Origin: an uncultured Cohaesibacter sp.
GTDB lineage: Bacteria; Pseudomonadota; Alphaproteobacteria; Rhizobiales; Cohaesibacteraceae
Direction of reading: 5' to 3'
Length of the DNA: 64,000 bases
Assembly: GCF_963664735.1 (NCBI RefSeq)
Contig: NZ_OY761553.1
Coordinates: 2,743,303 to 2,807,302, forward strand
Shown: piece by piece, positions 33,482-48,060 of the stretch
How the letters are laid out: every line of letters starts with the position of its first letter
How positions within the stretch are numbered: position 1 is the first letter of the stretch
Notes under the pieces: generated by a model
Databases searched by the model: none
What the model was told of the DNA's origin: nothing
The model's input: only the letters and a program-made list of their open reading frames with translations
Program-made: the position numbers and the translations under genes

Positions 33482-34741
33482 TCACCGTACGGCCTGCAGG
33501 AGGCTGTCAAACATGTCGCCAGCGGTGGAGATGATCTGAGAAGCTGATGAGTAGGCCTGTTGAGCTGCCAGCATGCTTGCGAACTCGGTGCTGGTGTCTA
33601 CCGTGCTGGATTCCAGCGACTTGCTGGCGATGCTGCCTGATCCATTACCTGCAGTGTGCAAGGTAGCGTTGCCCGAATAGTTCGAGATGGTGTAGATGCC
33701 GTCGCCTTCTTCATTCAGACCGTCGGAGTTCACAAAAGTTGCAATCGGGATCTGGTAGATCTTGCGTGTTTCGCCATTGGAGAATGTCGCAACAACCGAG
33801 CCGTCAGTTTCAATCTCAACATCATCAACCGTACCGAAAGCGCGCCCATCCACAGTGATGGTTTTTACGTTGATTTCTGCATCAGTCACATCGTTGGACG
33901 AATATTGCACGAGGCCATCGCTGCCATTGGCTGTGCCCATGTCCAGATTGATGGTCGAGGCTGCGGCACCGGTGTTCCAGGTGATGGCCAAAGTATTGGG
34001 GGTAGCTGAAGCAAGAGATCCATCATTGTTGAATGTGACTACGATCGGGTTTGCCGCATTTGGTGCGGTCACGGAACCTGTCGTCGATGATGTGTCAGCG
34101 GAGACCGGATCATCATATGTAATCTCCCATTGATTCTCGGCCGTCTTTTCATAAGTCGCGGTGATGGTGCTCGCGGTTCCAAGAGAGTCATAAATTTCAA
34201 AGCTGGATTCAAAAGTTGTCCCCACGGCAACATCTGCAGGTACAGTCGCCTGAATGGCAACATTCGTAGTCGCTTTGGCAGAACTCTGGATAGAGGTCAG
34301 ATCAATCTTGTCCAGATTCACGCTGCTTGCACCACCGGCAACCTTGCCATCTTCGTCGGTTGCCCAACCAAGAAGATAATAGTCACCGTTGGTCAGATAG
34401 CCTTCATCATCGACGGAGAATTCACCGTTACGCGTGTAATAACGAGAAGAAGAGTCGCCATCTTCAGCAACGACAAAGTAGCCGTCCCCTTGAATGGCCA
34501 TGTTGGTAGAAATTGCAGAGTCGACAACCAGGCCCTGAGCCGTGTTGTTCGTTGTGTTGCTTGCATGAACACCACCGCTTCTGGTGCTGCCTGAGCCTGC
34601 GACGAGATCGGAAAAACTCGTCTTGGATGCTTTGTAGGCCGTGGTATCCGAGTTTGCCAAGTTGTTTGAAACATTGGACAACGCCTGTGACTGCGCTGAT
34701 AATCCAGTAATCGCAGCGTTTGTTGCACCCATCAAGCTCAT
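33482..34741 (-). CDS. flgE: Flagellar hook protein FlgE
   Basis: Building block of the flagellar hook, 419 residues. The N-terminal rod signature (LMGATNAAITGLSAQSQALSNVSNNLANSDTTAYKASKTSFSDLV) and the C-terminal SLESSTVDTSTEFASMLAAQQAYSSASQIISTAGDMFDSLLQAVR are diagnostic of hook/rod proteins; the ANSDTTAYKA block fits FlgE. AGGAG lies eight bases before ATG 34741. The gene follows flgD by 99 bases in the same orientation, the standard order, because FlgD caps the growing hook. Confidence 0.92.
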   Translation of the reverse strand: MSLMGATNAAITGLSAQSQALSNVSNNLANSDTTAYKASKTSFSDLVAGSGSTRSGGVHASNTTNNTAQGLVVDSAISTNMAIQGDGYFVVAEDGDSSSRYYTRNGEFSVDDEGYLTNGDYYLLGWATDEDGKVAGGASSVNLDKIDLTSIQSSAKATTNVAIQATVPADVAVGTTFESSFEIYDSLGTASTITATYEKTAENQWEITYDDPVSADTSSTTGSVTAPNAANPIVVTFNNDGSLASATPNTLAITWNTGAAASTINLDMGTANGSDGLVQYSSNDVTDAEINVKTITVDGRAFGTVDDVEIETDGSVVATFSNGETRKIYQIPIATFVNSDGLNEEGDGIYTISNYSGNATLHTAGNGSGSIASKSLESSTVDTSTEFASMLAAQQAYSSASQIISTAGDMFDSLLQAVR

Positions 34742-34840: not shown

Positions 34841-35503
34841 TCACGACGAGCTGATCGCCGTGATGTCATCCATTGTGAAGCCGACATCACCGATCAGCAG
34901 GTACGTGTCGCCTGTAGAGGAATCGATGCCCGTCACTTTGCCTGTAACCGTGGTGCTTGTATCCACGGCCTTGCCATCGGCATCGGTTGCTTTTACGGAA
35001 AGGGTGTAGATGCCACCATCATCAAGCTGGGCTCCTGCGCTTGTCACGCCATCCCAGTTGACCGCATATGTCCCTTCTGCGGTCTCGCCTTCTGTGGTGT
35101 AGACTGCGTTGCCATCTTCATCGAGAATCGAGATTTCTACGGTCTCAGCATCGCTATCGAGGCTGTAGCTCCACTTAGCCGCGCCGTCCTGAAGCGTTGA
35201 GGTGTCACCAGCCACCGATACGGTTTGACCTATGTAGCCGAGCCCGTTTGAGGCGATCATCATATCCAGAGAAGAAAGAATGCTGTCCAGATTCTGAGCG
35301 TTCGCAACCTGCTGATCATAGGTTGAAAGCTGAACCATCTGATTGAGGAATTCTGTCGTATCCGTTGGATCTGTGGGATTCTGGTTCTGCAGCTGCTGGA
35401 CCATCAACTGCAGAAATTCGGAAGTGTCCAGCCCGAGGGCATTGCTCGACGTTGTTGTTGTTGTCGTGCTTGCAGTTGATGAGGCCAGTGCGGATACAGT
35501 CAT
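34841..35503 (-). CDS. flgD: Flagellar hook-capping protein FlgD
   Basis: Scaffold that caps the hook while FlgE polymerises, 220 residues. The conserved N-terminus LDTSEFLQLMVQQLQNQNPTDPTDTTEFLNQMVQLSTYDQQVANAQNLDSILSSL is typical, followed by the FlgD Ig-like domain (AKWSYSLDSDAETVEISILDEDGNAVY) with the short TYAVNWDG turn. ATG 35503 is chosen over an in-frame GTG three codons upstream; neither has a strong ribosome site. A CCTG-N16-CGTT promoter-like sequence lies 81 bases upstream. Confidence 0.9.
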   Translation of the reverse strand: MTVSALASSTASTTTTTTSSNALGLDTSEFLQLMVQQLQNQNPTDPTDTTEFLNQMVQLSTYDQQVANAQNLDSILSSLDMMIASNGLGYIGQTVSVAGDTSTLQDGAAKWSYSLDSDAETVEISILDEDGNAVYTTEGETAEGTYAVNWDGVTSAGAQLDDGGIYTLSVKATDADGKAVDTSTTVTGKVTGIDSSTGDTYLLIGDVGFTMDDITAISSS

Positions 35504-35583
35504 GGCTTTCACTCGCGCGTTTTAAGAAAACATGAGATAAAGGCACGCATTTCTAGCTTTGCCTTCATCCCTCTTATTTCTGA

Positions 35584-35607
35584 AACGGAGCCCCGAGCGA
35601 AATCAGG
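35584..35607 (-). promoter_or_regulatory. ECF-type promoter motif upstream of flgD
   Basis: On the minus strand CCTG-N16-CGTT, 81 bases before the flgD start. The same geometry occurs before five other genes of the flagellar block, and with a 17-base spacer before flagellin 1. The rest of the 402-base gap is AT-rich and holds no gene. Confidence 0.6.
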
Positions 35608-35660
35608 CGAATTTATTTCATTTTTATTTAGGAAAAAATTGCCCTATACTTATTTCCTCT

Positions 35661-35680
35661 AGGAATAATTTGCCTAGTAA
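35661..35680. promoter_or_regulatory. Shared upstream element, flgD copy
   Basis: AGGAATAATTTGCCTAGTAA matches 18 of 20 bases at 47539-47558 upstream of the sigma-factor gene. Both copies lie 54-66 bases upstream of a CCTG-N16-CGTT motif, a typical activator position. Confidence 0.5.
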
Positions 35681-35905
35681 TATTTATACTTAAATTCAAA
35701 AAGTATTTAAACAATTTAATTTTTAATGTAATCTTTATAAATCCAAAAAAAACCAGTCTACAATTTTAGGAATATGGAATTTATACTCAAAAAAGAAGGC
35801 AAAAAAATACAAAGCAGCATTTATTACTTGATCACATCTTGATAAGCAAGCATGGGACAATCGTTGAAGCGTGCATGTGAAAATTGACTGAAAAAGGAGG
35901 AAACT

Positions 35906-36151
35906 CTACTTTTTCACTTTACTCATGATGCGATTGACAAGAGAAGCTGGCGCTTTTGGAGCTGGAGAAGCCTTAGCCAGTTTAGAGATGCCTTGCATGA
36001 AGCGCAAACTATTCTGCGCTTCATCGGAAACACTTAGGAGAGCAAGAGCATCCGCCTTGCTCTCTGTTGGCCAACGATCTAAATCCGACCCATAGTGATC
36101 CAGCAACTCCTCGAACTGCTCAATCGACATAGAATGGTCAGATTTGGCCAT
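35906..36151 (-). CDS. Small acidic protein of the 'HYGxDxxRWP' type, possibly sigma-factor associated
   Basis: An 81-residue soluble protein. The segment EQFEELLDHYGSDLDRWPTESKADALALLSVSDEAQNSL matches a pattern (YGxDxxRWPxxExxxAxALL..SxEA) that I know from small alphaproteobacterial proteins often encoded next to ECF sigma-factor genes. Here an ECF gene does exist in the same block but 10.6 kb away, with fliS, fliD and five flagellins between. No function is proven; an anti-sigma or sigma-modulating role is only a suggestion. It lies between fliS and flgD in the same orientation. Confidence 0.6.
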   Translation of the reverse strand: MAKSDHSMSIEQFEELLDHYGSDLDRWPTESKADALALLSVSDEAQNSLRFMQGISKLAKASPAPKAPASLVNRIMSKVKK

Positions 36152-36205
36152 GATTGTCCTATCCCAGACCGGACAGCCATGGCATTACACAGGACTGTCA
36201 GGGCG

Positions 36206-36658
36206 TTATACCGCTTCAGCGGTAACTGCTTGGTCTTCCTGATCTAGAATCCCACCCATTACGGTGTCAATGCTTCGTTGCGGCATTTTTGCCAATTCTG
36301 CCCACGCGTTGCGGAATTCCAGAATTCCACTGGCCAAAGTAGCATATCTTTGGATTGCGTCATCACGTCCATAGGCATTATGGAGCGCAAAAATGTTAGC
36401 GGTATACATATCGATAAACTGTTGCCCCATCTTGGGATCTGGCTCAAGGCTCACATTCTGGCGCAGGCCACTCAAAATCTTGGACGCATGCACTACGCGA
36501 CTGAAGGCGCTTTCGAACTCCTTGCGCTTCAGGTAATAGGCCGTCAGAACAATTGCATTGAGAGCCTCATCCAATAGCATGGCAACAGCTTTGACAGGAG
36601 GCACAGCAATATTTGCCGTACGATAGGCGTTCACAGCGCGGCTTTGCGCGTAATTCAT
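36206..36658 (-). CDS. fliS: Flagellin export chaperone FliS
   Basis: Cytosolic chaperone that keeps flagellin monomeric before export, 150 residues from the ATG at 36658, which has GGGAG nine bases upstream. The FliS pattern is clear: AYRTANIAVPPVKAVAMLLDEALNAIVLTAYYLKRKEFESAFSRVVHASKILSGLRQNV, then the dimerising helices and ILEFRNAWAELAKMP. The frame is open further upstream into fliD, but that extension has no family similarity. It starts one base after fliD's stop codon, the usual fliD-fliS arrangement. Confidence 0.88.
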   Translation of the reverse strand: MNYAQSRAVNAYRTANIAVPPVKAVAMLLDEALNAIVLTAYYLKRKEFESAFSRVVHASKILSGLRQNVSLEPDPKMGQQFIDMYTANIFALHNAYGRDDAIQRYATLASGILEFRNAWAELAKMPQRSIDTVMGGILDQEDQAVTAEAV

Positions 36659-36659
36659 A

Positions 36660-38405
36660 TTAATTGTCTCCCGTGTTGAGAATTGCTTCCAAATAGTCCA
36701 GCGAACTCTGAGCCGCTTCGATCGCCGCCTGGTAAGACGCATAAAGAGTTGTCAGGCGCTCTTCATAGGCATCAACCGTGTCCATGAAGTCGTTATATTC
36801 GGTTTCGTAGTCTTCGTTTTGCTCAGTCAGAGTTGCAATCTTGTCGGTGAGAAGACCATCGTCTTCATCCGTATATTTGTTCAGTGTCTGAAAGAGCTGT
36901 TCAGCGATACCTGCAGTACTTGTAAAGGTGATGGTCGCATCTTCACTGCCGGTATAAACAAAAGTGATGCCTTCATATTCGGAGCCTGCGACACCGACGA
37001 TACGAGAACCATCAACTTCAAACAGGTCGCTCTTGCCGTCTGCTGTTACGCTGGCCAGATTGCCATCTGCATCAACAGTAATGTTCAGCTCCAGTTCGGA
37101 AGGCATATTGGAATTGCGTCTTAAAACCGCAAGGCTAGACGAGCTGGTCTCATACTGGAAATTGAGTACATCCTCAATCTCGTCCACGTCGTTCAGAAGC
37201 GCATCATTCAGCTCGTCTTCGTCGAGTTCGAGATAGTTATTCTCGTCATATGACAAGCCGAGAAGCGACATGCTGTTGCTGTCAATAACCGACGAAAGAG
37301 CACTGGCGACATCCGTATTCGCGCTGCGCAGCAAGTTATCACCGAACAGGACTGCATCACTGGAAACCGAGCCGCTGGCGTCAATTTCCTGCTGCGAGAT
37401 CGCCCATTCTCGATAAGCATTGTAAGAATCAACAAGCGAGACGACCGCATCTTTGATATTGGAGAGAGACTGACCAATCTCCACGGCAATTGATTCACCC
37501 GTGCCTGTCGTCTGATAAAGCGAGAAGGTAACACCTTCGACGACATCATCAATGGTATTGCTGTCCCGCGTAACCTCCACGCCATCGACAGAGAAAATGG
37601 CGACTTGAGACGACTGCAGCTCGTTCTTGTAGGAACCATCGGTATCCGTAAGCCCAAGGGCTTGTCCGATGTCGTCACCTTCCACCGTGGTCATTTCGAT
37701 GTCTGCACCAGTCCCACCGGTGAGCACCAGACGATAGTCACTATCATTAACAGCAACAACGGTTGCCGTAACACCCGTGTAACCGGTCTTAGTGTTGATC
37801 TCGTCAGCGACTTCGGCAAGGCTCATGGTCTCATCTATTTCGACCTGAAGAAGCGTTGCGTCTTCATCACCATCATCATTGGTCGGAATATCTGCCCCTG
37901 CCATAGCCAGAGAAAAAGTTCCCGTGTAACCAAGAGCATCATATTTGCTCTCTTGCGTTTCACTGGCAACTTTCTGAGCAGTCGCAAGCTGATCGATGGT
38001 CAACTCATAAGTCTGAATCGCGACCCCCGCCTCAGCGGTTACCACCAGAGAGTTTTCAGCATCAGCACCGCCAAGACCTGTCAAATAGGCCTCACGGGAG
38101 GAGAAAACATCGTCTTTTTGGGTAAGGGATTCTGAAACGCCAGTTATCTGTTCTACGGAATCGAGCAAATCTCCAAGCAGATCCTGCATCGATGAGTAAG
38201 CATCGATCTCGGTCTCGTTCTGGGTCATTTTTGCTTCGATGCGATCTGCAGGTAGCTGTTTCTGCAATACAGCAGCTTCGATCAAAGCATCCCAGTCGAT
38301 ATCGGAATTCGAACTGACGTTTTTCGTATAGGCAGATGACAAGCTGGATGAAGACGTGGTTGTGGACGTCGTCGCACTGCTATCGCTGGAACTAACACTC
38401 GTCAT
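36660..38405 (-). CDS. fliD: Flagellar filament cap protein FliD (HAP2)
   Basis: Filament cap that folds flagellin at the tip, 581 residues. The N-terminal FliD_N pattern is present (DIDWDALIEAAVLQKQLPADRIEAKMTQNETEIDAYSSMQDLLGDLLDSVEQI) and the C-terminal coiled coil (EQNEDYETEYNDFMDTVDAYEERLTTLYASYQAAIEAAQSSLDYLEAILNTGDN) matches FliD_C. The first 30 residues are Ser/Thr-rich and disordered, as in export signals. Overall composition is very acidic. It lies downstream of flagellin 1 with a hairpin between. Confidence 0.88.
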   Translation of the reverse strand: MTSVSSSDSSATTSTTTSSSSLSSAYTKNVSSNSDIDWDALIEAAVLQKQLPADRIEAKMTQNETEIDAYSSMQDLLGDLLDSVEQITGVSESLTQKDDVFSSREAYLTGLGGADAENSLVVTAEAGVAIQTYELTIDQLATAQKVASETQESKYDALGYTGTFSLAMAGADIPTNDDGDEDATLLQVEIDETMSLAEVADEINTKTGYTGVTATVVAVNDSDYRLVLTGGTGADIEMTTVEGDDIGQALGLTDTDGSYKNELQSSQVAIFSVDGVEVTRDSNTIDDVVEGVTFSLYQTTGTGESIAVEIGQSLSNIKDAVVSLVDSYNAYREWAISQQEIDASGSVSSDAVLFGDNLLRSANTDVASALSSVIDSNSMSLLGLSYDENNYLELDEDELNDALLNDVDEIEDVLNFQYETSSSSLAVLRRNSNMPSELELNITVDADGNLASVTADGKSDLFEVDGSRIVGVAGSEYEGITFVYTGSEDATITFTSTAGIAEQLFQTLNKYTDEDDGLLTDKIATLTEQNEDYETEYNDFMDTVDAYEERLTTLYASYQAAIEAAQSSLDYLEAILNTGDN

Positions 38406-38431
38406 TCGCCAAACTCCTATTTAATATATAC

Positions 38432-38463
38432 GGATGGGCGAGCCGGTTCAGGCGCGCCCATCC
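38432..38463 (-). terminator. Hairpin between flagellin 1 and fliD
   Basis: Nine-base perfect stem ggatgggcg / cgcccatcc, 10 bases after the flagellin 1 stop codon and 26 before fliD. The leftward side is followed by A/T-rich sequence without a pure T run, so it may reduce rather than stop read-through from the highly expressed flagellin gene. Confidence 0.6.
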
Positions 38464-38473
38464 AATATTTATT

Positions 38474-39697
38474 TTATTGGATCAGTCGGAGCAGGTTTTG
38501 CGGCATCTGGTTAGCCTGAGAAGCGGCGGCAACAGCGGCCTGAACCTTCACAGTGGAAGAAGACAGGCTTGCCTGTTCCTTGGCAATATCCACGTCAGCG
38601 ATAGCAGACTTGGCCGCTTCAAGGTTTTCCACGCTGGTGTCGATCTGAGCCGAACGGAACTCGAACCGGGACATGGAAGCACCCATTTCAGCACGAGCAT
38701 CCGAAATGTTGTTAATCGCCACATCAAGAACAGAAAGCGCTTCTGCCGCACCATCTTTGGTCGAAACATCTAGCTTGGCAATGTTAAGAGAAGAGGTATC
38801 CAACGACTTGATGGACAGATTGATGGTATCCGCAGAGGTGGACCCAACAACGATATCCGCACCCGTCGTAGAAACTTCCGTTGTTGTGCCAGTGCCACTA
38901 CCGGCAACAAGCCCCATGGCCGTTACAAGAGCGGCACCATCGCCTGTGGTCGAAATATTCGAGATGCTGACTTTATTGTTTTCACCTTTGAGCAAAGAAG
39001 TGAACTCGATCTCACCAGTACCACTAACCTTTGCTGCGGAGACCGTATAGTCACCGCTATCTTTCAAAGCAGCATTGATAGCATCCACCAGATCGTCCGT
39101 ATCCATCGCAGTGGTGCTCCCACCGCTTTCAGCACTGGTAATGGTAATCTTCGTGTTGTTGACAGAGAAGGTAGCTGTTGCATCTTCTGTCTGGCTCGTA
39201 GCTACGGCATAGTCCGTCGCGGCAGTCGAACTGTGATAAGTAGCTTTTGTTTCGGTATCATCGTAAGAGAAGTCACTGGAGCCATCAAGCAAGCTCTGGC
39301 CGTTGTAACGGGTGGATTCAGTGATGCCGTCAATTTCTTCCTTAAGCTGGGAGAATTCAGCGTTGATGTAGGTACGCTCTGTGTCGGTCACAGTACCGGA
39401 CGCAGACTGGGACGCAAGCGTCTTCATGCGCTCGACGATATCGGCAATGTTGGATGCGCCACCGTCGGCGGTCTGCAAAACGGAAATACCGTGGGAGGCG
39501 TTGGTAGATGCCTGTTCCAGCGCGGCAACGTCTGTTCCGATTTTGGTGGAAATTGCGAGACCGGCAGCATCATCAGATGCTTTGTTAATGTTGGAACCAC
39601 TGGCCAGTTTTGCCAGAGAGTTGGTCTGCTCGCCTGAGTTTCTATTCAAAAAGCGAACTGCAGTGTTGGCTGCAGTATTGGTGGAAATTACGGGCAT
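38474..39697 (-). CDS. Flagellin 1 of five
   Basis: Filament subunit, 407 residues, exported without a signal peptide. Conserved D0/D1 N-terminus (MPVISTNTAANTAVRFLNRN ... DDAAGLAISTKIGTDVAALEQASTNASHGISVLQTADGG) to about residue 147, a variable centre (about 148-315) and a conserved C-terminus ending SQANQMPQNLLRLIQ. Outside the centre it is almost identical to flagellin 2 and clearly different from flagellins 3-4 (NASHGISVLQT versus NSSHAVSVLNT). Upstream it has its own promoter-like motif and a 5'-UTR stem. Confidence 0.95.
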   Translation of the reverse strand: MPVISTNTAANTAVRFLNRNSGEQTNSLAKLASGSNINKASDDAAGLAISTKIGTDVAALEQASTNASHGISVLQTADGGASNIADIVERMKTLASQSASGTVTDTERTYINAEFSQLKEEIDGITESTRYNGQSLLDGSSDFSYDDTETKATYHSSTAATDYAVATSQTEDATATFSVNNTKITITSAESGGSTTAMDTDDLVDAINAALKDSGDYTVSAAKVSGTGEIEFTSLLKGENNKVSISNISTTGDGAALVTAMGLVAGSGTGTTTEVSTTGADIVVGSTSADTINLSIKSLDTSSLNIAKLDVSTKDGAAEALSVLDVAINNISDARAEMGASMSRFEFRSAQIDTSVENLEAAKSAIADVDIAKEQASLSSSTVKVQAAVAAASQANQMPQNLLRLIQ

Positions 39698-39748
39698 TGT
39701 CGAACTCCTGAACTAAGCAATAGCCACGCTACTGATACTAAACTCGTT

Positions 39749-39766
39749 GACGCTTTTACGCGCGTC
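39749..39766 (-). promoter_or_regulatory. 5'-UTR stem-loop of flagellin 1
   Basis: GACGC / GCGTC stem around an eight-base loop, 52 bases before the start codon. It is repeated at 41533-41550 before flagellin 2. In other alphaproteobacteria FlbT binds flagellin leader RNA, so this is a candidate site of that control. Confidence 0.45.
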
Positions 39767-39776
39767 TTACTTATAC

Positions 39777-39801
39777 AACGGGATGAGACAGCAAATTCAG
39801 G
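39777..39801 (-). promoter_or_regulatory. ECF-type promoter motif of flagellin 1
   Basis: Minus strand CCTG-N17-CGTT, 80 bases before the start; the spacer is one base longer than in the other copies. A further shared 20-base stretch (CAACTCATTGATATtATTAA, 39818-39837) recurs at 41602-41621 before flagellin 2. The rest of the 527-base gap is AT-rich and without genes, apart from the flagellin 2 terminator. Confidence 0.5.
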
Positions 39802-40142
39802 CGGTGTAAAATTTAGTCAACTCATTGATATTATTAACATTCGATAAAGAAAATTTTACTCGCCCTTAGAGGCGTTAGTATTTAGGCGCGAAATCTCTAG
39901 TCTTTTTCGTCAAATCCTTAACAAAAAGATCGAATATTTCTCCATTATTTCCTAAAATAAACTTCGTAAAGCTGAGTATTATTGTTAATTTAAAGTTAAA
40001 ATATCCATTTGTCCAAGACTTACATTAATTCAAAAGAAACATTTCTTAACACTTTATAAAGGCAGTTTTTGCGCCATCTGGCTCCAGCAGGAACTTACTC
40101 TTGGCCTCGAGAATGACCAGCGCCCCCCCCTCAAAAACGACA

Positions 40143-40188
40143 AAACCGCAGCCAGAGCTTACCTGAAAGCTCCAACTGCGGCTCTAAT
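40143..40188 (-). terminator. Terminator of flagellin 2
   Basis: Stem ccgcagttggagctt / aagctctggctgcgg (two internal mismatches) followed on the minus strand by TTTT, 37 bases after the flagellin 2 stop codon. Confidence 0.8.
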
Positions 40189-40224
40189 TCATGACGGACC
40201 TGATTTGGTCCTATAGCCTCAGAC

Positions 40225-41481
40225 CTACTGGATCAGTCTGAGCAGGTTCTGTGGCATCTGGTTGGCTTGAGAGGCGGCGGCAACAGCGGCCTGAACCTTC
40301 ACAGTGGAAGAAGACAGGCTTGCCTGTTCCTTGGCGATGTCCACGTCAGCGATAGCAGACTTGGCAGCTTCAAGGTTTTCCACGCTGGTGTCGATCTGAG
40401 CCGAACGGAATTCGAACCGGGACATGGAAGCACCCATCTGAGCGCGGGCTTCGGAGATATCATCAATAGCTACATCAAGAACCGAGAGCGCTTTTGCTGC
40501 GCCGTCCTTGGTGGAGACATCAAGATCATCGATATGCAATTCCGATGTTGAAAGCTCTGCGATCGACATATTGATGGTATCTGCTGCCGTGGAACCAACC
40601 ACGATGTCAGCACCAGTCGTCGAAGCTGCTGTGGTAGTACCGGTAGCGGAGGCTGATCCTGCCGTTTTGGTCGCAGTCAGACCAAGCGCCGTAATCAAAG
40701 CGGCCTGCTCAGTAGAATTGCCAGACTCACCTTGAATGTCCGAGACTGTAATTGTGGCATTCTCGCCAGTTTTCACGGATGTGAATTCCAGGCCACTATT
40801 ATCCTTTGCAGAAAGAGTGTAGTCGCCGTTTTCCTCTAACTGATCCTGTACTTGCTTCAAAAGATCAGCCGCAGACAATCCAGTCGTATGTCCTTTATCA
40901 ACCATTGCAGAAGTGATAGTCACTTTTGTATTGTTGATGCGGAAGGACACGGAGACGTCTTCCGTGGTCGTATCGTCTGTCGTATTTGCGGCATAGGCCG
41001 CCATGGCGGTACCAATATTCAATGTTGCAGAAGTATTAGTATCATCGTTTGAGAAGTCACTGGAGCCATCAAGCAAGCTCTGGCCGTTGTAACGGGTGGA
41101 TTCAGTGATGCCGTCGATTTCTTCCTTCAACTGGGAGAATTCTGCGTTGATGTAGGTACGTTCCGTGTCGGTCACGGTACCAGATGCGGACTGAGAGGCC
41201 AGCGTCTTCATACGCTCGACGATGTCGGCAATGTTGGATGCACCACCGTCGGCGGTCTGCAAAACGGAAATACCGTGGGAGGCGTTGGTAGATGCCTGTT
41301 CCAGCGCGGCAACGTCTGTGCCGATTTTGGTGGAAATTGCCAGACCGGCAGCATCATCAGATGCTTTGTTAATGTTGGAACCACTGGCCAGTTTTGCCAG
41401 AGAGTTGGTCTGGTCACCAGAGTTTCTATTCAAAAAGCGAACTGCGGTGTTGGCCGCAGTGTTGGTGGAAATGACGGGCAT
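40225..41481 (-). CDS. Flagellin 2 of five
   Basis: Filament subunit, 418 residues. D0/D1 ends nearly identical to flagellin 1. Its centre (TTDDTTTEDVSVSFRINNTK ... SAADLLKQVQDQLEENGDYTLSAKDNSGLEFTSVKTGENATITVSDIQGESGNSTEQAALITALGLTATKTAGS) is instead shared with flagellin 4, showing exchange of the central block between genes. Own promoter motif at 41561-41584 and terminator at 40143-40188. Confidence 0.95.
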   Translation of the reverse strand: MPVISTNTAANTAVRFLNRNSGDQTNSLAKLASGSNINKASDDAAGLAISTKIGTDVAALEQASTNASHGISVLQTADGGASNIADIVERMKTLASQSASGTVTDTERTYINAEFSQLKEEIDGITESTRYNGQSLLDGSSDFSNDDTNTSATLNIGTAMAAYAANTTDDTTTEDVSVSFRINNTKVTITSAMVDKGHTTGLSAADLLKQVQDQLEENGDYTLSAKDNSGLEFTSVKTGENATITVSDIQGESGNSTEQAALITALGLTATKTAGSASATGTTTAASTTGADIVVGSTAADTINMSIAELSTSELHIDDLDVSTKDGAAKALSVLDVAIDDISEARAQMGASMSRFEFRSAQIDTSVENLEAAKSAIADVDIAKEQASLSSSTVKVQAAVAAASQANQMPQNLLRLIQ

Positions 41482-41560
41482 AGTCGAACTCCTGAACTAA
41501 ACGATAGCCACGCTACTGTTACTGAACTCATTGACGCTTTTACGCGCGTCTTACTTATAC

Positions 41561-41584
41561 AACGGGGTGAAACGCGAAAACCGG
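41561..41584 (-). promoter_or_regulatory. ECF-type promoter motif of flagellin 2
   Basis: Minus strand CCGG-N16-CGTT, 80 bases before the start. A GACGC/GCGTC leader stem lies at 41533-41550. The remaining part of the 503-base gap is AT-rich and shows no gene. Confidence 0.6.
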
Positions 41585-41913
41585 TCGCACTTCATATCGT
41601 CCAACTCATTGATATGATTAATTTTTAGTGAAAGAATTTCAGAGGCGGGTTTTCATCGTTAGGATTTACCGCCCGTAATTCCTTTGCTTTTGGCAGCAAA
41701 GATTAACAAACGGACTGATAATTTCGACAAATTCTTTAAAAACAGGAATAAATCAACCAAGCTTCATCGTTAATAGAGCGTTAAAAGATTTCGCAAAAAT
41801 GCAGCATTTGCAGGGCGTATCAGCTCTAGGTAATAGTTTGTAAAGCATAACACTCAAGTGCTTTAAGCGAAGAAAATGCTCCCGCCCGCCCTGCCTGATC
41901 TCGGTCAAATACA

Positions 41914-41960
41914 AAAAATCGCAGCCGGAGCATCCAAAAAGAAGCTCCAACTGCGATTTC
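41914..41960 (-). terminator. Terminator of flagellin 3
   Basis: Stem aaatcgcagccggagc / gctccaactgcgattt, 24 bases after the flagellin 3 stop codon, with a T-rich exit on the minus strand. Confidence 0.8.
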
Positions 41961-41984
41961 AAATCACGTCAGCTTATGGCAATA

Positions 41985-43220
41985 TTACTGCATCAGCTTG
42001 AGCAAGTTCTGCGGCATCTGGTTAGCCTGAGAGGCGGCAGCAACAGCGGCCTGAACCTTCACGCTTGAAGAAGACAGGCTGGCCTGTTCCTTGGCGATAT
42101 CCACGTCAGCGATAGCTGACTTGGCGGCATCAAGGTTTTCCACGCTGGTGTCGATCTGCGAAGAACGGAACTCAAACCGAGACATTTGAGCACCAAGGTC
42201 TGCACGGGCTTCAGAGATATAGTCAATCGCAATATCGAGGATAGAAAGCGCTTTTGCCGCACCGTCTCCATCAGAGACATCAAGATTGTTGATACCCAAG
42301 GCTTTGGTTGTTAGCGAGTCAACCGAGAGATTAATGGTATCCGCTGCGGTGGAGCCAACAACGATATTGGCTCCGGTATCATCACTCGCGGTGGTCGTAC
42401 CCGTTGCTTCAGTATCCCCCGTTAAATTCAGGGCTGAGATCAAAGCTGCGGTTTGTGTACTATCACCACTTTCTGCTTGAATATGGGAAATTGTTAGGCG
42501 CGCATTTTCGCCCGTCTTAACAGATGTAAACTGCAAACCCGTATTATCTGCCGCAGTGACAGTGTAATCCCCTTTTTCAATAAGCTGATCTTGCACCTGC
42601 TGCAATATTGCCGCGGCATCAAGGGCTGTTGACGCAGTGCCTGCAGCATCAACGGCAGATGTGATTGTAATTTTTGTATTGTTAATACGGAATGACACAA
42701 CAGTATCAGTAGTAGTCGCGCCGCTAGCATAGCCGGCGCCCAAAGCGGCACCCGCCTGCAGCACAGCAGCTGCATCGGTATCTTCCACTGCGAAGTCACT
42801 GGAGCCATCCAGAAGGCCCTGCCCGTTATAGCGAGTGGATTCGGTGATGCCGTCAATTTCTTCCTTCAGCTGCTGAAATTCAGCGTTGATGTAGGAACGC
42901 TCTGTGTCGGTCACCGTACCGGATGCGGACTGGGAGGCCAGTGTCTTCATACGCTGTACGATGTCGGCGATGTTGGATGCGCCACCGTCGGCGGTGTTGA
43001 GCACCGAAACAGCATGCGAGGAGTTGGTCGATGCCTGCTCCAGCGCAGCGACGTCCGTTCCGATTTTAGTCGCGATAGCCAAGCCAGCAGCATCGTCGGA
43101 TGCCTTGTTAATGTTGGACCCACTGGCCAGTTTTGCCAGAGAGTTAGACTGGTCGTCTGAGTTTCTGTTCAAAAAACGCACTGCAGTGTTTGCAGCTGTG
43201 TTGGTAGAGATTACTGGCAT
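41985..43220 (-). CDS. Flagellin 3 of five
   Basis: Filament subunit, 411 residues. The D0/D1 ends form a second subtype with flagellin 4 (RNSDDQSNSLAKLASG, NSSHAVSVLNTADGG, LSVDSLTTKALGINNLDVS, YISEARADLGAQ, ending MPQNLLKLMQ). Its centre (LQAGAALGAGYASGATTTDTVVSFRINNTK and following) is its own. The upstream 320 bases are duplicated before flagellin 4. Confidence 0.95.
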   Translation of the reverse strand: MPVISTNTAANTAVRFLNRNSDDQSNSLAKLASGSNINKASDDAAGLAIATKIGTDVAALEQASTNSSHAVSVLNTADGGASNIADIVQRMKTLASQSASGTVTDTERSYINAEFQQLKEEIDGITESTRYNGQGLLDGSSDFAVEDTDAAAVLQAGAALGAGYASGATTTDTVVSFRINNTKITITSAVDAAGTASTALDAAAILQQVQDQLIEKGDYTVTAADNTGLQFTSVKTGENARLTISHIQAESGDSTQTAALISALNLTGDTEATGTTTASDDTGANIVVGSTAADTINLSVDSLTTKALGINNLDVSDGDGAAKALSILDIAIDYISEARADLGAQMSRFEFRSSQIDTSVENLDAAKSAIADVDIAKEQASLSSSSVKVQAAVAAASQANQMPQNLLKLMQ

Positions 43221-43545
43221 GGTAGCTTCCTAACTCGAAAAATTGGCTCCACTTTACAGTGCCAAAAAGTGCGTTACTTCACGCGTTATTATTATAACGA
43301 GCTAGAATCGCGAAACCGGTCGATAATTATTTTACTATATTTTTTAACCACTTAAACCTTTGTTAACCATAAGATCGTATCGGCAAATCAGCTGTAAAAG
43401 GGGAAAAGCAAGCATTTCCGCCATTTTTGGCATTTTTGGCGGAAATTTTATAGTTAACCAATGTTTAACAAAGAATAAATTTATGGTTAATACGACGTTA
43501 TTTAATTTCATATTGCCTTGCAAGATGCGAAAACTTACCCCTTAA
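43221..43545. repeat. Flagellin upstream duplication, copy A
   Basis: This stretch upstream of flagellin 3 is closely similar to 44932-45256 upstream of flagellin 4: same ribosome site, leader stem GCGT/ACGC, promoter motif, the ttttttaaccacttaaacct block and a later taacaaagaataaatttatg block. A short divergent part in the middle (about 43384-43440) differs. Together with the coding similarity it marks a tandem gene duplication. Confidence 0.85.
43296..43319 (-). promoter_or_regulatory. ECF-type promoter motif of flagellin 3
   Basis: Minus strand CCGG-N16-CGTT followed by ATAATA, 76 bases before the start. Confidence 0.6.
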
Positions 43546-43576
43546 AATTCACATAAAGTAATCGTGCCACAGTACA

Positions 43577-43622
43577 CAAAAAAGGCTCCACCCCTTTGCA
43601 AAAGACCAGGTAGAGCCTTTGG
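43577..43622 (-). terminator. Terminator of flagellin 4
   Basis: Stem aaaggctccacc / ggtagagccttt, 52 bases after the flagellin 4 stop codon, with a T run on the leftward exit. Confidence 0.8.
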
Positions 43623-43674
43623 CTGCGCATCAATCCTATCGACGCGCAGCATCAATTAACGAGCCGACTATTCG

Positions 43675-44931
43675 TTACTGCATCAGCTTGAGCAGGTTCT
43701 GCGGCATCTGGTTAGCCTGAGAGGCGGCAGCAACAGCGGCCTGAACCTTCACGCTTGAAGAAGACAGGCTGGCCTGTTCCTTGGCGATATCCACGTCAGC
43801 GATAGCCGACTTGGCGGCATCAAGGTTTTCCACGCTGGTGTCGATCTGAGAAGACCGGAACTCAAACCGAGACATTTGGGCACCAAGGTCAGCGCGGGCT
43901 TCAGAGATATAGTCGATCGCAATATCAAGAAGAGAAAGAGCCTCTGCTGCTCCGTCCTTGGTGGAAACGTCAAGATTGTTGATCCCCAAGGCCTTGGTTG
44001 TTAGCGAATCCACGGAGAGATTGATGGTATCCGCTGCGGTGGAACCAACAACGATATTAGCACCGGTATCATCATTAGCAGTGGTCGTACCCGATGCTTC
44101 TGCAGAACCTGTGGTTTTGGTAGCCGTCAAGCCGAGTGCCGTTATCAAAGCGGCCTGCTCAGTAGAATCGCCAGACTCACCTTGAATGTCCGAGACTGTA
44201 ATTGTGGCATTCTCGCCCGTTTTCACGGATGTGAATTCCAAGCCACCATTATCTTTGACCGTCAGAGTATAGTCGCCGTTGTCCTTTAACTGATCTTTAA
44301 CTTGCGTCAAAAGTTCAGCTGCAGTCATTCCTGTCGTATGTCCTTGACCAACCATCTCAGAAGTGACAGTTATTTTTGTATTGTTGACACGGAAGGATAC
44401 AGAGACATCTTCTGTAGTTGTGTCATCCGTGTTATTTGCAGCATAGGCCGCCATAGCGGTGCCTGTATTAAGCACAGCAGCTGCATTGGTGTCCTCCACG
44501 GCAAAGTCACTGGAGCCATCCAGAAGGCCCTGACCGTTATAGCGGGTGGATTCTGTGATGCCGTCAATTTCTTCCTGCAGCTGCGCAAATTCAGCGTTGA
44601 TGTAGGAACGTTCTGTGTCGGTCACCGTACCGGATGCAGACTGGGATGCCAGTGTCTTCATACGCTGCACAATGTCGGCAATGTTGGAGGCGCCACCGTC
44701 GGCGGTGTTGAGCACCGAAACAGCGTGTGAGGAGTTGGTCGATGCCTGCTCCAGCGCCGCGACGTCCGTTCCGATTTTGGTCGAGATGGCGAGTCCGGCA
44801 GCATCGTCAGACGCCTTGTTGATGTTGGATCCACTGGCCAACTTAGCGAGGGAGTTGGACTGGTCACTAGAGTTTCTATTCAAAAAACGCACTGCAGTGT
44901 TTGCAGCTGTGTTGGTAGAGATTACTGGCAT
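43675..44931 (-). CDS. Flagellin 4 of five (mosaic)
   Basis: Filament subunit, 418 residues. Its N- and C-terminal parts are those of flagellin 3, but the centre (NNTDDTTTEDVSVSFRVNNTKITVTSEMV ... DYTLTVKDNGGLEFTSVKTGENATITVSDIQGESGDSTEQAALITALGLTATKTTGS) follows flagellin 2. At DNA level 44150-44285 is nearly identical to 40700-40830. This is a clear recombinant or gene-conversion product. Intact frame, own promoter and terminator. Confidence 0.95.
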   Translation of the reverse strand: MPVISTNTAANTAVRFLNRNSSDQSNSLAKLASGSNINKASDDAAGLAISTKIGTDVAALEQASTNSSHAVSVLNTADGGASNIADIVQRMKTLASQSASGTVTDTERSYINAEFAQLQEEIDGITESTRYNGQGLLDGSSDFAVEDTNAAAVLNTGTAMAAYAANNTDDTTTEDVSVSFRVNNTKITVTSEMVGQGHTTGMTAAELLTQVKDQLKDNGDYTLTVKDNGGLEFTSVKTGENATITVSDIQGESGDSTEQAALITALGLTATKTTGSAEASGTTTANDDTGANIVVGSTAADTINLSVDSLTTKALGINNLDVSTKDGAAEALSLLDIAIDYISEARADLGAQMSRFEFRSSQIDTSVENLDAAKSAIADVDIAKEQASLSSSSVKVQAAVAAASQANQMPQNLLKLMQ

Positions 44932-45256
44932 GGTAGCTTCCTAACTCGATAAAAATGGCTCCACTTTACAGTGCCAAAAAGTGCGTTACTTCACGCGTTA
45001 TTCTTATAACGAGCTAGAATCTAAAAACCGGTCGATAATTATTTTACTATATTTTTTAACCACTTAAACCTTTATTAACTATAAGATCGTATCGCCACCC
45101 CACCCCACAACTTCCTTAAAACGCAGATTTTAGCCAAAGTTTGCAAAATGTACTGAAAATTTATGATTAACTAATACTTAACAAAGAATAAATTTATGGT
45201 TAACACGGCGTTATTTAATTTCTTACTGCCTCGCAAGCTGCGAAAGCTTACCAGAA
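44932..45256. repeat. Flagellin upstream duplication, copy B
   Basis: Second copy of the upstream region described at 43221-43545. The two differ by scattered substitutions and a divergent middle part. The remaining bases up to 45392 hold only the flagellin 5 terminator candidate. Confidence 0.85.
45008..45031 (-). promoter_or_regulatory. ECF-type promoter motif of flagellin 4
   Basis: Minus strand CCGG-N16-CGTT followed by ATAAG, 77 bases before the start. Confidence 0.6.
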
Positions 45257-45311
45257 GAAATTCACAGCAAGTATTCAGAATATGACAACGAGCACGGCTC
45301 TTGCTCCTCCC

Positions 45312-45337
45312 CAAAAGGACAACGAGCAGCCTTGTCC
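45312..45337 (-). terminator. Weak terminator candidate after flagellin 5
   Basis: Short GGACAA / TTGTCC stem followed on the minus strand by TTTT, 56 bases after the stop codon. Weaker than the terminators of the other flagellin genes. Confidence 0.4.
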
Positions 45338-45392
45338 GTTGGCCGAAGCCAATCGACCGACAATATGATGCATCCGGAAACTGGTGTTGAAA

Positions 45393-46607
45393 TTACTGCA
45401 GCAGCTTTAGCAAATACTGGGGTACTTTGTTTGCCTGCGCAACGGCGGCGGCGGCAGCCTGAACGCGCACAGACTCCGACGACATTTTCGCCATTTCCTT
45501 AGCTACGTCCACATCGGTTATCGCAGATCTTGCAGCTTCGAGACTCTCAATGCTGGTATGGAGCTGCTGTGCGCGAAACTCAAATCGCGACATCGTGCCC
45601 CCCAGCTCCGACCGGGCGTTTGCAACCGACCCTATCGCCAGATCCAACAGTGAAAAGGCTTTGGCTGCACCGTCTTGAGTGGAAAGATCCAAGCCAGAAA
45701 GCCCCAATGCGGAGCTCGAGAGAGACTGAATAGAAATGTTGATGGTATCGGTGCCGTTGGCTCCAACCATCACATCTGCCCCGGAGGAAATCGCCGGAAC
45801 TGACATGCCTCGCTCACTCACATCACTCCCCGCAGAAAGCCCCATCACTGCAAGCAGCCCACTGTCTCCGGAGATATCGGTGATATCGAGCGACGCCATG
45901 TCGCCGGTCTCAGCGCTTGTAAGCTGTAGGTTCCCCGCATCATCAACAGAGGCCGTAACAGTGTAATCACCCTGCTCCTGCAGTGAAGCGTTGATCGCTG
46001 AAGCCAGATCTTGGGCTGACATCGCCGCCGTGCTAGTTCCATCACTTTTGCTTATAACCGTTACCTTGGTGCCATTAATGGAGAAGCTCGCGTTTGCGTC
46101 TTTAGTTGAAGCCGCTGCGCTGTAGCCACCCGCAACACCGCTACTAAAGACCGCGGCAGTCTCAACCGTATCATTGGAGTAGTCACTTGAGCCGTCAAGC
46201 AAGCTCACGCCATTGTATCGTGTGCCAGAGCTAACGCTGTCAATTTCCTGCAGAAGGGCGGCAAATTCGGTTTGGATATCGCTACGCTCATCATCGGTCA
46301 CCGTGCCTGATGCTGCTTGCGAGGATAAGGTTTTCATCCGCTCAAGGATTTCTGAAATAGTTGAAGCGCCGCCATCTGCAGTCTGCAGCAGAGCCAGACT
46401 GTTAGATGCGTTTACAGACGCCTGTTCAAGGGTAGCCAGATCCGAAGACATACCCGTCGAAATGGCGAGGCCCGCCGGATCATCCGACGCTTTACCGATG
46501 CGCGATCCGCTCGATAGTTTTGAAATGGAATCCGAGAGCCGGTTTGACGACTTGTTCAAATATCGCACAGCTGTGTTAGCGGCAATATTTGTGGAAATTA
46601 CTGGCAT
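45393..46607 (-). CDS. Flagellin 5 of five (divergent)
   Basis: Filament subunit, 404 residues from ATG 46607, which has AGGAG eight bases upstream; the in-frame extension before it is not conserved. It keeps the MPVISTNxAANTAVR start but differs throughout (YLNKSSNRLSDSISKLSSGSRIGKASDDPAGLAISTGM) and ends NKVPQYLLKLLQ instead of NQMPQNLL. It is therefore an older paralogue outside the gene-conversion group. It lies directly downstream of the sigma-factor gene; its promoter sits in the 124-base gap. Confidence 0.93.
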   Translation of the reverse strand: MPVISTNIAANTAVRYLNKSSNRLSDSISKLSSGSRIGKASDDPAGLAISTGMSSDLATLEQASVNASNSLALLQTADGGASTISEILERMKTLSSQAASGTVTDDERSDIQTEFAALLQEIDSVSSGTRYNGVSLLDGSSDYSNDTVETAAVFSSGVAGGYSAAASTKDANASFSINGTKVTVISKSDGTSTAAMSAQDLASAINASLQEQGDYTVTASVDDAGNLQLTSAETGDMASLDITDISGDSGLLAVMGLSAGSDVSERGMSVPAISSGADVMVGANGTDTINISIQSLSSSALGLSGLDLSTQDGAAKAFSLLDLAIGSVANARSELGGTMSRFEFRAQQLHTSIESLEAARSAITDVDVAKEMAKMSSESVRVQAAAAAVAQANKVPQYLLKLLQ

Positions 46608-46677
46608 ACTCAAACTCCTCGTTACCGACAACAGGCACGCTTGCGAGTGAATTTCAAGCTAAGCACCTACAGTCTCT

Positions 46678-46701
46678 AACGGGAGGAGCGCGTAAAACCG
46701 G
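46678..46701 (-). promoter_or_regulatory. ECF-type promoter motif of flagellin 5
   Basis: Minus strand CCGG-N16-CGTT, 71 bases before the start. Confidence 0.6.
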
Positions 46702-46731
46702 GCGAATTTAAATGGAAATGCGAAAGTTTGC

Positions 46732-47388
46732 TTAAGGTTGGGTAAACAGGGAAAGAATATCTGCACTGTGGGCCTTGAGCAACTGGCGCAGCTTTTGCCG
46801 CCCGCGTTTGAGCAGGGATTCGACGGCCGAAACGCTTGTTTCCATAATCTCAGCTATTTCGCTGTTGCTCATATTTTCATTGTAGGAGAAGACGATTGCA
46901 ATGCGCTGCTGATCAGGCAACTGCGCGACCGCATCTTCGAGCAGGTCAATCGCTTCTTGCATTTCAAGAATGGCAGACTGGTTGGAGCTATCGTCTTTGA
47001 CATCTGGCAGAACATCCATTGCCGATGCTCTATTCTTGCGAAGAAGGTCAATGCAGCGATTGGTGACAACCTTAAACAACCAAGTCGAGAACTTTGCTCT
47101 TCCAGATTTCCATTCACCCCGGCGGGTCCAAACCTGCAAGAAAGCGTCTTGCAACACATCCTCAGCTTCAGGTCCGTCTTGAAGAATACGAAAAGCCACG
47201 GCATAGCCGCGATCAATGTGCCTCTCAACGAGCAACTGAAAAGCTTCCTCCTGACCGAGAGCGATAAGACCAAGCAATTCGTCATCACTGAGCGCAACCA
47301 AATCGCGCGCCTGCAACAGTTGGGTTTTAGCCGGAACTGACTCAGGTGTATTCGATTGTGAAACAGTTAGCACAGTTGCATTCTTCAT
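46732..47388 (-). CDS. ECF-type sigma-70 family RNA polymerase sigma factor
   Basis: Alternative sigma factor of 218 residues with only regions 2 and 4. Region 2 is seen in FQLLVERHIDRGYAVAFRILQDGPEAEDVLQDAFLQVWTRRGEW and KFSTWLFKVVTNRCIDLLRKNR (core binding and -10 recognition), region 4 in LPDQQRIAIVFSYNENMSNSEIAEIMETSVSAVESLLKRGRQKLRQLL (-35 recognition). A ~40-residue N-terminal extension precedes region 2. No anti-sigma gene is adjacent. It is the first gene of the leftward flagellar block, and its own upstream region carries the same CCTG-N16-CGTT motif as the flagellin genes, suggesting autoregulation and control of the filament genes. This is not a FliA-type sigma-28, which would have region 3. 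Confidence 0.9.
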   Translation of the reverse strand: MKNATVLTVSQSNTPESVPAKTQLLQARDLVALSDDELLGLIALGQEEAFQLLVERHIDRGYAVAFRILQDGPEAEDVLQDAFLQVWTRRGEWKSGRAKFSTWLFKVVTNRCIDLLRKNRASAMDVLPDVKDDSSNQSAILEMQEAIDLLEDAVAQLPDQQRIAIVFSYNENMSNSEIAEIMETSVSAVESLLKRGRQKLRQLLKAHSADILSLFTQP

Positions 47389-47449
47389 TGTTCAGTCCAT
47401 CAACGTTCTAGGCTAAGAAGGCACCTCACAAAATTCTTCCTACTAATAA

Positions 47450-47473
47450 AACGTTGTACCGAACTCTTTCAGG
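47450..47473 (-). promoter_or_regulatory. ECF-type promoter motif of the sigma-factor gene
   Basis: Minus strand CCTG-N16-CGTT followed by TTATTAG, 62 bases before the start codon. Confidence 0.55.
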
Positions 47474-47538
47474 CGTGTAACTATAAGTTTTTTTTCGGTA
47501 TATTTCTGACTTTTTCTAGGAAAAATCTGCATCCAGCA

Positions 47539-47558
47539 AGGAATCTTTTGCCTAGTAA
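47539..47558. promoter_or_regulatory. Shared upstream element, sigma-factor copy
   Basis: AGGAATCTTTTGCCTAGTAA, 18 of 20 bases identical to 35661-35680 upstream of flgD and in the same orientation relative to the gene. Confidence 0.5.
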
Positions 47559-47559
47559 A

Positions 47560-48060
47560 AAGTGATAATATCTATTCTTCTGTATACTTAAGAAATAATA
47601 TTGCTATTTTATGTATTTTTAATATATTTATATTGATTAATATTATATAAATTATTTATTATGCAATATTAATCAAAAAATTAAATTTATTACTTAATTT
47701 TATATTTTAATTTTTTTTCAATTTTACAATAATTTATCAAATCAATTATATAATTACTATACATACAATATTATTATAATATTATTTTTAATAATAATAT
47801 TTTATTTTAATTTAAACCATCACGTTATATTTTTATATAAATCATTTTACTGAAACATATTAACAATTTTAATTGAAAATTATTTTTGAATGTTCAGTCT
47901 TCCTAATTCAATTAGGAAAATGTTAAACTATCTTACTAATTCGTTAACAAGACGCAATTTTAGCGAAAAACTACATTTGTATAATGACAGACAAAATTAG
48001 AAATATTTATATATTTCTGAACACAATTCCAGACATTTTTTCGGCCCGTTCTAGTCCAGT
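47560..48060. other. Extremely AT-rich noncoding stretch
   Basis: The stretch 47641-47820 contains only four or five G/C per 60 bases, about 92% A+T, against a roughly 52-55% GC surrounding. No credible reading frame exists on either strand. It may be a curved or nucleoid-protein-bound upstream region of the sigma-factor gene, or a scar of transfer. Confidence 0.8.

Follow-up and report, generated by a model that had tools for sequence, protein, structure and literature searches.

The closest described relative of the gene block analyzed here is the RpoE6/Asf6 system of Azospirillum brasilense Sp7, in which RpoE6, a sigma factor of the extracytoplasmic function (ECF) type, controls the flagellin gene fliC2 (J Bacteriol, December 2025; PMC12826043, our statements on this system resting on the accessible parts of that article). 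The transcription start of fliC2 was mapped by rapid amplification of 5' complementary DNA ends (5' RACE) to a position 58 bases before the ATG, behind a -35 element CGCCAG and a -10 element CGTGAG that are 16 bases apart; constructs without the -35 or the -10 element were inactive, and the promoter was highly active in Escherichia coli with RpoE6, its activity being abolished in an rpoE6 mutant (PMC12826043). Asf6, a protein of 98 amino acids, binds RpoE6, and its loss leads to the overproduction of FliC2 and to a filament that probably consists almost only of this flagellin. To its authors' knowledge RpoE6 is the first alternative sigma factor found to regulate a flagellin in Alphaproteobacteria, and the same article points out a sigma-first gene order in Bradyrhizobium, Rhodopseudomonas and Magnetospirillum (PMC12826043). 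The block studied here lies on the minus strand of a stretch of 64,000 nucleotides (the window; G000:C1:2743303-2807302) from the 4.94-Mb, single-contig genome of a marine bacterium, an uncultured Cohaesibacter sp. It runs from an ECF sigma gene through flagellins 5 to 1, fliD, fliS, asf, flgD, flgE, an flgN-like gene, flgK and flgL, and we consider it very probable, from conserved motifs in the DNA and their position, that the local ECF factor drives the promoters of this cassette.

When filament genes are switched on in bacteria without sigma-28 is an open question in Alphaproteobacteria. The cassette resembles the FliA/FlgM system in having a dedicated sigma/anti-sigma pair for filament genes; it differs in that the sigma factor is of the ECF and not of the sigma-28 type, the promoter is another one, the predicted regulon includes flgD and flgE, and control extends to an extra cassette only. 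In Caulobacter, FlbD, FliX and sigma-54 couple late flagellar genes to early assembly (accessible parts of PMC3930126). The presence of an flbD gene and of candidate FlbD repeats in our genome is a likeness to that hierarchy, but the flagellin promoters of the cassette are of the ECF type and lack the repeat. Cohaesibacter is also listed with both a subpolar and a lateral flagellar system (accessible parts of PMC6406911), a Rhizobiales trait mirrored by the two FlhA and two FlgG proteins found here; that article covers two systems and its main text contains neither the word FliD nor the word sigma, and the cassette forms a third hook-filament set.

Compared with RpoE6/Asf6, the sigma gene stands first here and has a promoter of its own, with asf distant from it; each of the five flagellins has an N17 promoter, and flgD an N16 one. 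The geometry is similar to that of the fliC2 promoter, but the letters differ (CGCCAG-N16-CGTGAG versus CGMCYG-N17-CGTT at flagellins and CGCCTG-N16-CGTT at the sigma gene and flgD). Inverted repeats accompany the sigma and flgD promoters, whereas none was found at the four Azospirillum promoters checked. In the plasmid records of A. brasilense and A. lipoferum, CCAG-N16-CGTG precedes both fliC2 and flgD; the accessible parts of PMC12826043 report fliC2 as the sole promoter, do not mention an flgD site and, in nine mentions of flgE, do not discuss a surplus hook. Within the openly licensed literature (most subscription papers lie outside it), only this article was found on this sigma factor, and no article listed there names a surplus hook set under ECF control. 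ECF control of a flagellin, which an earlier note on this DNA had taken to be new, is thus already published for RpoE6 (PMC12826043); new here are the inverted repeat of the N16 promoter class and the surplus hook-filament cassette.

A Shared Promoter Motif

The promoters in question and the genes directly behind them are as follows, in window coordinates; the counts refer to the 80 named relatives introduced in the next section.

47447..47475, minus strand: promoter of the sigma gene, CGCCTG-N16-CGTTTTA, with autoregulation predicted (motif match; N16 in 74/80 named relatives)
46732..47388, minus strand: ECF sigma gene of the RpoE6 type, 218 amino acids, at the head of the block (Pfam Sigma70_r2 3e-19, Sigma70_r4_2 2e-16; NCBIfam ECF families; homologues head the clusters of relatives)
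46675..46704, minus strand: promoter of flagellin 5, CGCCCG-N17-CGTTAGA (motif match)
45393..46607, minus strand: flagellin 5, ATG at 46607 (Pfam Flagellin_N/C)
45005..45034, minus strand: promoter of flagellin 4, CGACCG-N17-CGTTATA (motif match)
43675..44931, minus strand: flagellin 4 (Flagellin_N match at genome 2787811-2788224)
43293..43322, minus strand: promoter of flagellin 3, CGACCG-N17-CGTTATA, a near-duplicate of that of flagellin 4 (motif match)
41985..43220, minus strand: flagellin 3 (Flagellin_N match at genome 2786100-2786513)
41558..41587, minus strand: promoter of flagellin 2, CGACCG-N17-CGTTGTA (motif match)
40225..41481, minus strand: flagellin 2 (Flagellin_N match at genome 2784361-2784774)
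39774..39803, minus strand: promoter of flagellin 1, CGCCTG-N17-CGTTGTA (motif match)
38474..39697, minus strand: flagellin 1 (Flagellin_N over cut-off; NCBIfam flagellin models below their cut-offs)
35581..35609, minus strand: promoter of flgD, CGCCTG-N16-CGTTTCA (motif match; N16 in 70/76 named relatives)
34841..35512, minus strand: flgD, hook cap (Pfam FlgD, FlgD_ig)

The earlier note had described seven CCKG-CGTT sites, before the sigma gene, the five flagellins and flgD, and all of them were recovered by a pattern scan, among 18 matches of CCKG-N16/17-CGTT on both strands of the 64 kb. The fuller motif, present at all seven predicted unit starts, is CGMCYG-N16/17-CGTT with a -35 consensus CGCCTG. 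A 16-base spacer had been assigned to every site except that of flagellin 1; it holds for the sigma gene and flgD only, while all five flagellin sites are read as N17 because the fuller motif in relatives has N17 at flagellins and N16 at the sigma gene and flgD. The start codons follow the end of CGTT at a distance of 61-79 bases, slightly different from the 62-81 bases given before. The caution that the sites before flagellins 3 and 4 are not independent was well placed: these two genes and their upstream DNA (window 42000-45200) are near-duplicates.

Matches to CCKG-N16/17-CGTT occur in 0.97% of random 90-base stretches of the window, and dinucleotide shuffling of the upstream regions (3000 trials) left on average 0.029 of seven regions with a match and never more than two, the observed number being seven of seven. 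Genome-wide, the loose CCKG pattern gave 348 + 278 matches and its reversed control 526 + 494; given this frequency it means little alone, and the argument is carried by position and conservation. A strict pattern, CGMCYG-N16/17-CGTT-NNA, tuned on the seven sites themselves, has 17 matches in 4.94 Mb, seven of them in the cassette (reversed control, 29 + 26). The ten others all fall within open frames of at least 100 amino acids or antisense to them, and three of these also precede another frame, by 57, 68 and 234 bases (genome 3070456, 470 and 372773). No sigma-28 pattern was found up to 400 bases upstream of the frames, and no protein of the genome exceeds the FliA_WhiG cut-off of 189.6 (best match 107.3 bits, window sigma factor 32.7 bits).

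Promoters of EcfG have the -35 consensus GGAAC, and the CGTT of the cassette is shared with EcfG -10 elements, a likeness on which the earlier note had drawn. With CGCCTG as -35 element, the reading as an EcfG promoter is rejected. Yet another ECF factor, EcfG for example, might use these promoters, with the local sigma gene a mere neighbour; the shared CGTT speaks for this view. The -35 element argues against it, as does the motif's association with the sigma gene, which it precedes in 74/80 named loci, and the Azospirillum relative of this very sigma factor drives fliC2 in E. coli (PMC12826043). We give this explanation hardly any credence.

Conservation of Promoters and Gene Order

Two sets of relatives were assembled. 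A search with the sigma protein (E 1e-40 or better) in 199 genomes of the order found 15 with the sigma gene, the Cohaesibacter genome included; scanning genome contigs gave 539 confirmed relatives, of which the best 80, the named set, were used. At least three loci are common to both sets. The closest named relatives of the sigma protein come from three Cohaesibacter species (74-90% identity), and three of five other genomes of the same genus carry the gene.

When CGMCYG-Nd-CGTT was sought within 300 bases upstream, as the earlier note had proposed for orthologous genes, the named loci showed the motif in a class-specific form: N16 before the sigma gene in 74/80 and before flgD in 70/76 (N17 in none of either), and N17 before flagellins in 83/85, the other two having N16. 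The control starts (fliD, fliS, asf, flgE, flgN, flgK, flgL) yielded a single N16/N17 match in 532 named regions. The looser CC[CGT]G pattern gave the same picture, with controls reaching at most 5/76 (flgE, N17). Spacings other than 16 or 17 are rare. Among the fourteen order relatives, N16 occurs at 12/14 sigma genes, 12/13 flgD genes and 1/19 flagellins.

The order sigma-flagellin(s)-fliD-fliS-asf-flgD-flgE-flgN-flgK-flgL is kept in 13/14 order relatives and 76/80 named loci. The exception in the order set (L044) does not have the hook half downstream, an FlgE being encoded on the other side of the sigma gene. In the named loci, a flagellin follows the sigma gene in 80/80, fliD, fliS and asf are present in 79/80 and flgD in 76/80; two loci (L063, L074) are cut by contig ends, in three (L053, L054, L061) the sequence covered ends behind flgE, and two from Rhodopseudomonas (L124, L129) have no flgD-flgL half within 6-7 kb after asf. 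One named locus (L106) with a Bradyrhizobium-like cassette stands in a record titled Frankia sp. RB7, which is probably mislabelled.

An Inverted Repeat at the N16 Promoters

Upstream of the sigma and flgD promoters lie inverted repeats:

47538..47554, minus strand: inverted repeat TAGGCAAAAGATTCCTT, upstream of the sigma promoter (repeat in 72/74 named sigma upstream regions)
35659..35677, minus strand: inverted repeat CTAGGCAAATTATTCCTAG, upstream of the flgD promoter (repeat in 69/70 named flgD upstream regions)
35629..35646, minus strand: second copy of the inverted repeat, TAGGGCAATTTTTTCCTA (pattern match)

The repeat, GGCA-N5-[TA][TG]CC, was sought in the 200 bases upstream of the -35 element, leaving out regions without a strict promoter (6 sigma, 6 flgD, 2 flagellin). 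In addition to the counts above it occurs in 1/83 flagellin regions of the named loci, and other repeat spacings in at most seven regions of any class. An earlier palindrome count over 450 bases had also included 46/85 flagellin regions, which the 200-base limit reduced to 1/83; one of the 450-base matches (L043) lies in the leader, downstream of the promoter. In the set formed by the window and the fourteen order relatives, the repeat was found at 12/13 sigma genes and 1/19 flagellins, and at just 7/13 flgD genes. We presume that the repeat is akin to the ftr site, and the inverted repeats may be candidate FlbD (ftr) sites.

Similar repeats stand in the second flagellar system of the genome before fliF (42 bases), before an flgB-like frame (60 bases; FlgB at 138.3 bits, cut-off 142), before flgI (177 bases) and between flgF and fliL; at three of these (fliF, flgB, flgI) there is also a CtrA-like TTAA-N7-TTAA box. 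The fliF operon of this second cluster contains flbD (NCBIfam equivalog, 819.5 bits; cut-off 750). Over 204 kb of the genome, the repeat scan gave 13 strand matches at 11 or more of 13 positions and six in the reversed control, and loose repeats occur elsewhere too, such as eight bases before an flgF-like frame of the first, lateral-type system; what ties the repeat to the second system is therefore its position, together with the exact match before fliF, and not the number of matches.

The FlbD protein of Caulobacter binds ftr sites; it is a repressor of fliF and an activator of middle and late genes (accessible parts of PMC3930126). The CGTT sites might accordingly be something other than ECF promoters, with FlbD and sigma-54 driving the flagellins and flgD as in that organism, a view for which the encoded FlbD and the candidate repeats before the sigma gene and flgD can be cited. 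The window, however, contains a single match to a sigma-54 pattern (plus strand, 32515), which does not precede the sigma gene, the flagellins or flgD; a sigma-54 pattern, expected at ftr-type promoters, is thus absent at the sigma gene and flgD. A looser sigma-54 scan, flawed by its masking pattern, produced one match, 299 bases ahead of the frame listed for flagellin 5. The fixed CGTT spacing of 16 or 17, the near-absence of the repeat from flagellin promoters and the same geometry in the mapped ECF promoter of Azospirillum (PMC12826043) also speak against sigma-54, and we regard this explanation as very unlikely.

The Sigma Factor and Its Putative Asf6-Type Partner

Pfam and NCBIfam matches confirm regions 2 and 4 of the ECF type in the window sigma factor, which is 44% identical to Azospirillum RpoE6. 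A tree was built from 57 sigma rows. One of its branches (100/96) separates the 22 rows that lack flagellar neighbours from the flagellar rows; rows with the sigma gene in last position are split.

35906..36151, minus strand: asf, homologue of the anti-sigma protein Asf6, 81 amino acids (A. brasilense Asf6 matched at 1.6e-22 by a profile built from cluster homologues)

By sequence, the product of asf is an Asf6 homologue: a profile of 94 cluster homologues found A. brasilense Asf6 among 228 sequences. No Pfam or NCBIfam family matches the protein over its cut-off, and a sequence comparison with solved structures found nothing better than E 0.45. Its AlphaFold model (28 sequences) has four helices with a mean pLDDT of 80.9 and a pTM of 0.59. 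In a fold search of the PDB, anti-sigma chains took ranks 1-3 at non-significant E values of 2.9-4.8, with RsiW first (TM 0.62/0.70, E 2.9) and RseA among the best. A C-terminal hydrophobic, possibly membrane-spanning stretch, judged by eye, is present in the Asf homologues of L064, L073, L077, L080, L081 and L132 and absent from the window copy.

At the sister ECF loci without flagellar neighbours in the DNA covered, an Asf-like frame lies beside or overlaps the sigma gene in 17/22 (L161, L164, L167-L171, L173-L175, L177, L178, L180-L184; some scores are low). These sequences suggest that there is a wider family of anti-sigma proteins not yet described.

A Surplus Hook and Filament

The remaining cassette genes complete a set for hook, junction, cap and filament that contains no basal-body genes:

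36660..38405, minus strand: fliD, filament cap (Pfam FliD_N/FliD_C; sole FliD_C match in the genome)
36206..36742, minus strand: fliS, flagellin export chaperone (Pfam FliS 2.4e-11); the listed frame overlaps the end of fliD, and the true start may lie further in
33482..34741, minus strand: flgE, hook protein, third FlgE of the genome (NCBIfam FlgE over cut-off)
32724..33209, minus strand: flgN-like chaperone gene (Pfam FlgN 29.7 bits, just under the cut-off of 30.5)
31248..32606, minus strand: flgK, hook-filament junction (Pfam FlgK_D1)
30343..31239, minus strand: flgL, hook-filament junction (Pfam Flagellin_N 1.5e-6, and position)

The genome encodes two FlhA, two FlgG and three FlgE proteins (TIGR03506 matches, counted by eye). 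Two further flagellar systems are present (loci L021-L023; L136-L138): one bears FlaF/FlbT and lies at 2.82-2.85 Mb, and the other bears FlbD and lies at 4.41-4.43 and 4.90-4.93 Mb.

FlgE and FlgG were counted in a hand-chosen sample of 15 sigma-positive genomes of the order, seven of the class and 13 sigma-negative genomes. FlgE outnumbers FlgG in 20/22 sigma-positive genomes versus 1/10 sigma-negative flagellated ones. Among the former, FlgE/FlgG is 3/2 in G000 (the window genome), G197, G149, G119, G143 and G180, 2/1 in G012, G087, G019, G065, G132, G154, G106, G070, G459, G235 and G535, and 3/1 in G238, G249 and G407. Among the sigma-negative genomes it is 1/1 in G084, G175, G044, G001, G010, G117, G210 and G213 and 2/2 in G035, and G004, G015 and G042 gave no FlgE or FlgG match. 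FliD occurs once in each of the 15 sigma-positive order genomes and in 0/5 sigma-negative ones; among these genomes it is restricted to the cassette.

Eight genomes have one FlgG, one FlhA over the cut-off and two FlgE; in two of them (G106, G070) a second FlhA-like match lies below the cut-off. With one FlgG, one FlhA and two FlgE, no more than a single basal body is available to the cassette, if any flagellum is made from it, and these genomes turn the matter into a testable claim: one motor base with two interchangeable outer flagella. We lean, with moderate confidence, towards the view that the cassette would supply a spare hook and filament for a shared basal body.

Even with regulation as described, the cassette might be a duplicate in decay, or its flagellins and hook proteins might be minor components mixed into the ordinary flagellum; such a reading rivals the appendage proposal only and overlaps the explanation that we prefer. 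FliC2 is a minor flagellin whose loss caused no detected swimming defect (accessible parts of PMC12826043), and the two Rhodopseudomonas loci without the hook half fit such a role. On the other side, the full set of FlgD, FlgE, FlgN, FlgK, FlgL, FliD and FliS is kept in order in 13/14 order relatives and, as far as the sequence covered extends, in 76/80 named loci, the cassette has its own regulator and conserved promoters, and the filament made without Asf6 is probably almost only FliC2 (PMC12826043). A minor role or decay is in our judgement unlikely, yet to be taken seriously.

A Model for the Cassette and Its Weak Points

In the proposed model, the local RpoE6-type ECF factor would recognise CGMCYG-N16/17-CGTT and would drive three kinds of units, namely its own gene, the flagellin units and the flgD-flgE-flgN-flgK-flgL operon. 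The last of the five flagellin units probably runs on into fliD-fliS-asf, since the spacing suggests that the flagellin 1 promoter also serves these genes. The Asf6-type protein encoded after fliS would hold the sigma factor in check; once freed, the latter would allow the cassette's hook, junction, cap and filament to be built on the basal body of another system, perhaps the subpolar one. For Cohaesibacter, autoregulation, a releasing signal and a role of FlbD at the repeats are likewise presumed. The two promoter classes, one with N16 and the repeat at the sigma and hook units and one with N17 but no repeat at the flagellins, may point to two steps, and they suggest spacer length as a device of timing or strength. 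Taken together, an ECF/anti-sigma switch might swap the whole outer flagellum on one shared basal body, with FlbD, the regulator of subpolar assembly, acting first on the sigma and hook promoters, the freed sigma factor then firing the N17 flagellin promoters, and spacer class and repeat encoding the order of assembly; this combined proposal we put forward only tentatively, as a possibility on the weaker side.

Local ECF control, as the earlier note had proposed, is supported by the spacing of the sites, their position and their conservation across families, by an ECF gene heading the block and by the promoter mapped in Azospirillum (PMC12826043); the Asf6 homologue, spacers that differ by promoter class, the inverted repeat and the surplus hook go beyond that note. 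From one mapped promoter in one species, the picture widens to a predicted regulon that is conserved, consists of three units and has two classes of promoter, usually combined with a surplus hook-filament set.

A number of observations weigh against our interpretation. Titles of 58/80 named loci read Bradyrhizobium, so that the counts are not independent. N17 was found at just 14/19 flagellins of the order relatives, and the strict motif is absent from 6/80 sigma, 6/76 flgD and 2/85 flagellin regions of the named set, the misses including 4/4 Rhodopseudomonas flgD and 3/6 Rhodopseudomonas sigma regions. Under midpoint rooting, the RpoE6/Azospirillum rows of the sigma tree join the non-flagellar side (96/93), and in the window some 10.6 kb separate asf from the sigma gene. 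As to the hook, two sigma-positive genomes have no FlgE excess (FlgE/FlgG 2/2 in G116 and 1/1 in G241), sigma-negative G082 has two tandem FlgE and one FlgG, and the seven class genomes were picked from the 29 top loci for flagellar genes beside the sigma gene, 80/385 class genomes having a sigma match. Finally, FliC2 is a minor flagellin of A. brasilense, where RpoE6 also affects metabolism, so that a purely flagellar role is not assured (accessible parts of PMC12826043).

Other Features of the Window

The leaders of flagellins 1-4 (39697-39776, 41481-41560, 43220-43295, 44931-45007) open with a short hairpin after the expected transcription start, for example GACGC...GCGTC, and leader folds in relatives often have a hairpin too. 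CtrA-like TTAA-N7-TTAA boxes occur upstream of flagellins 1-4 at window 39985, 41770, 43352, 43454, 45064 and 45167, in AT-rich DNA. The DNA upstream of the sigma gene (window 47480-48000) is very AT-rich, and directly upstream of that gene lie those of an RND efflux pump and its adaptor (window 48404-52752).

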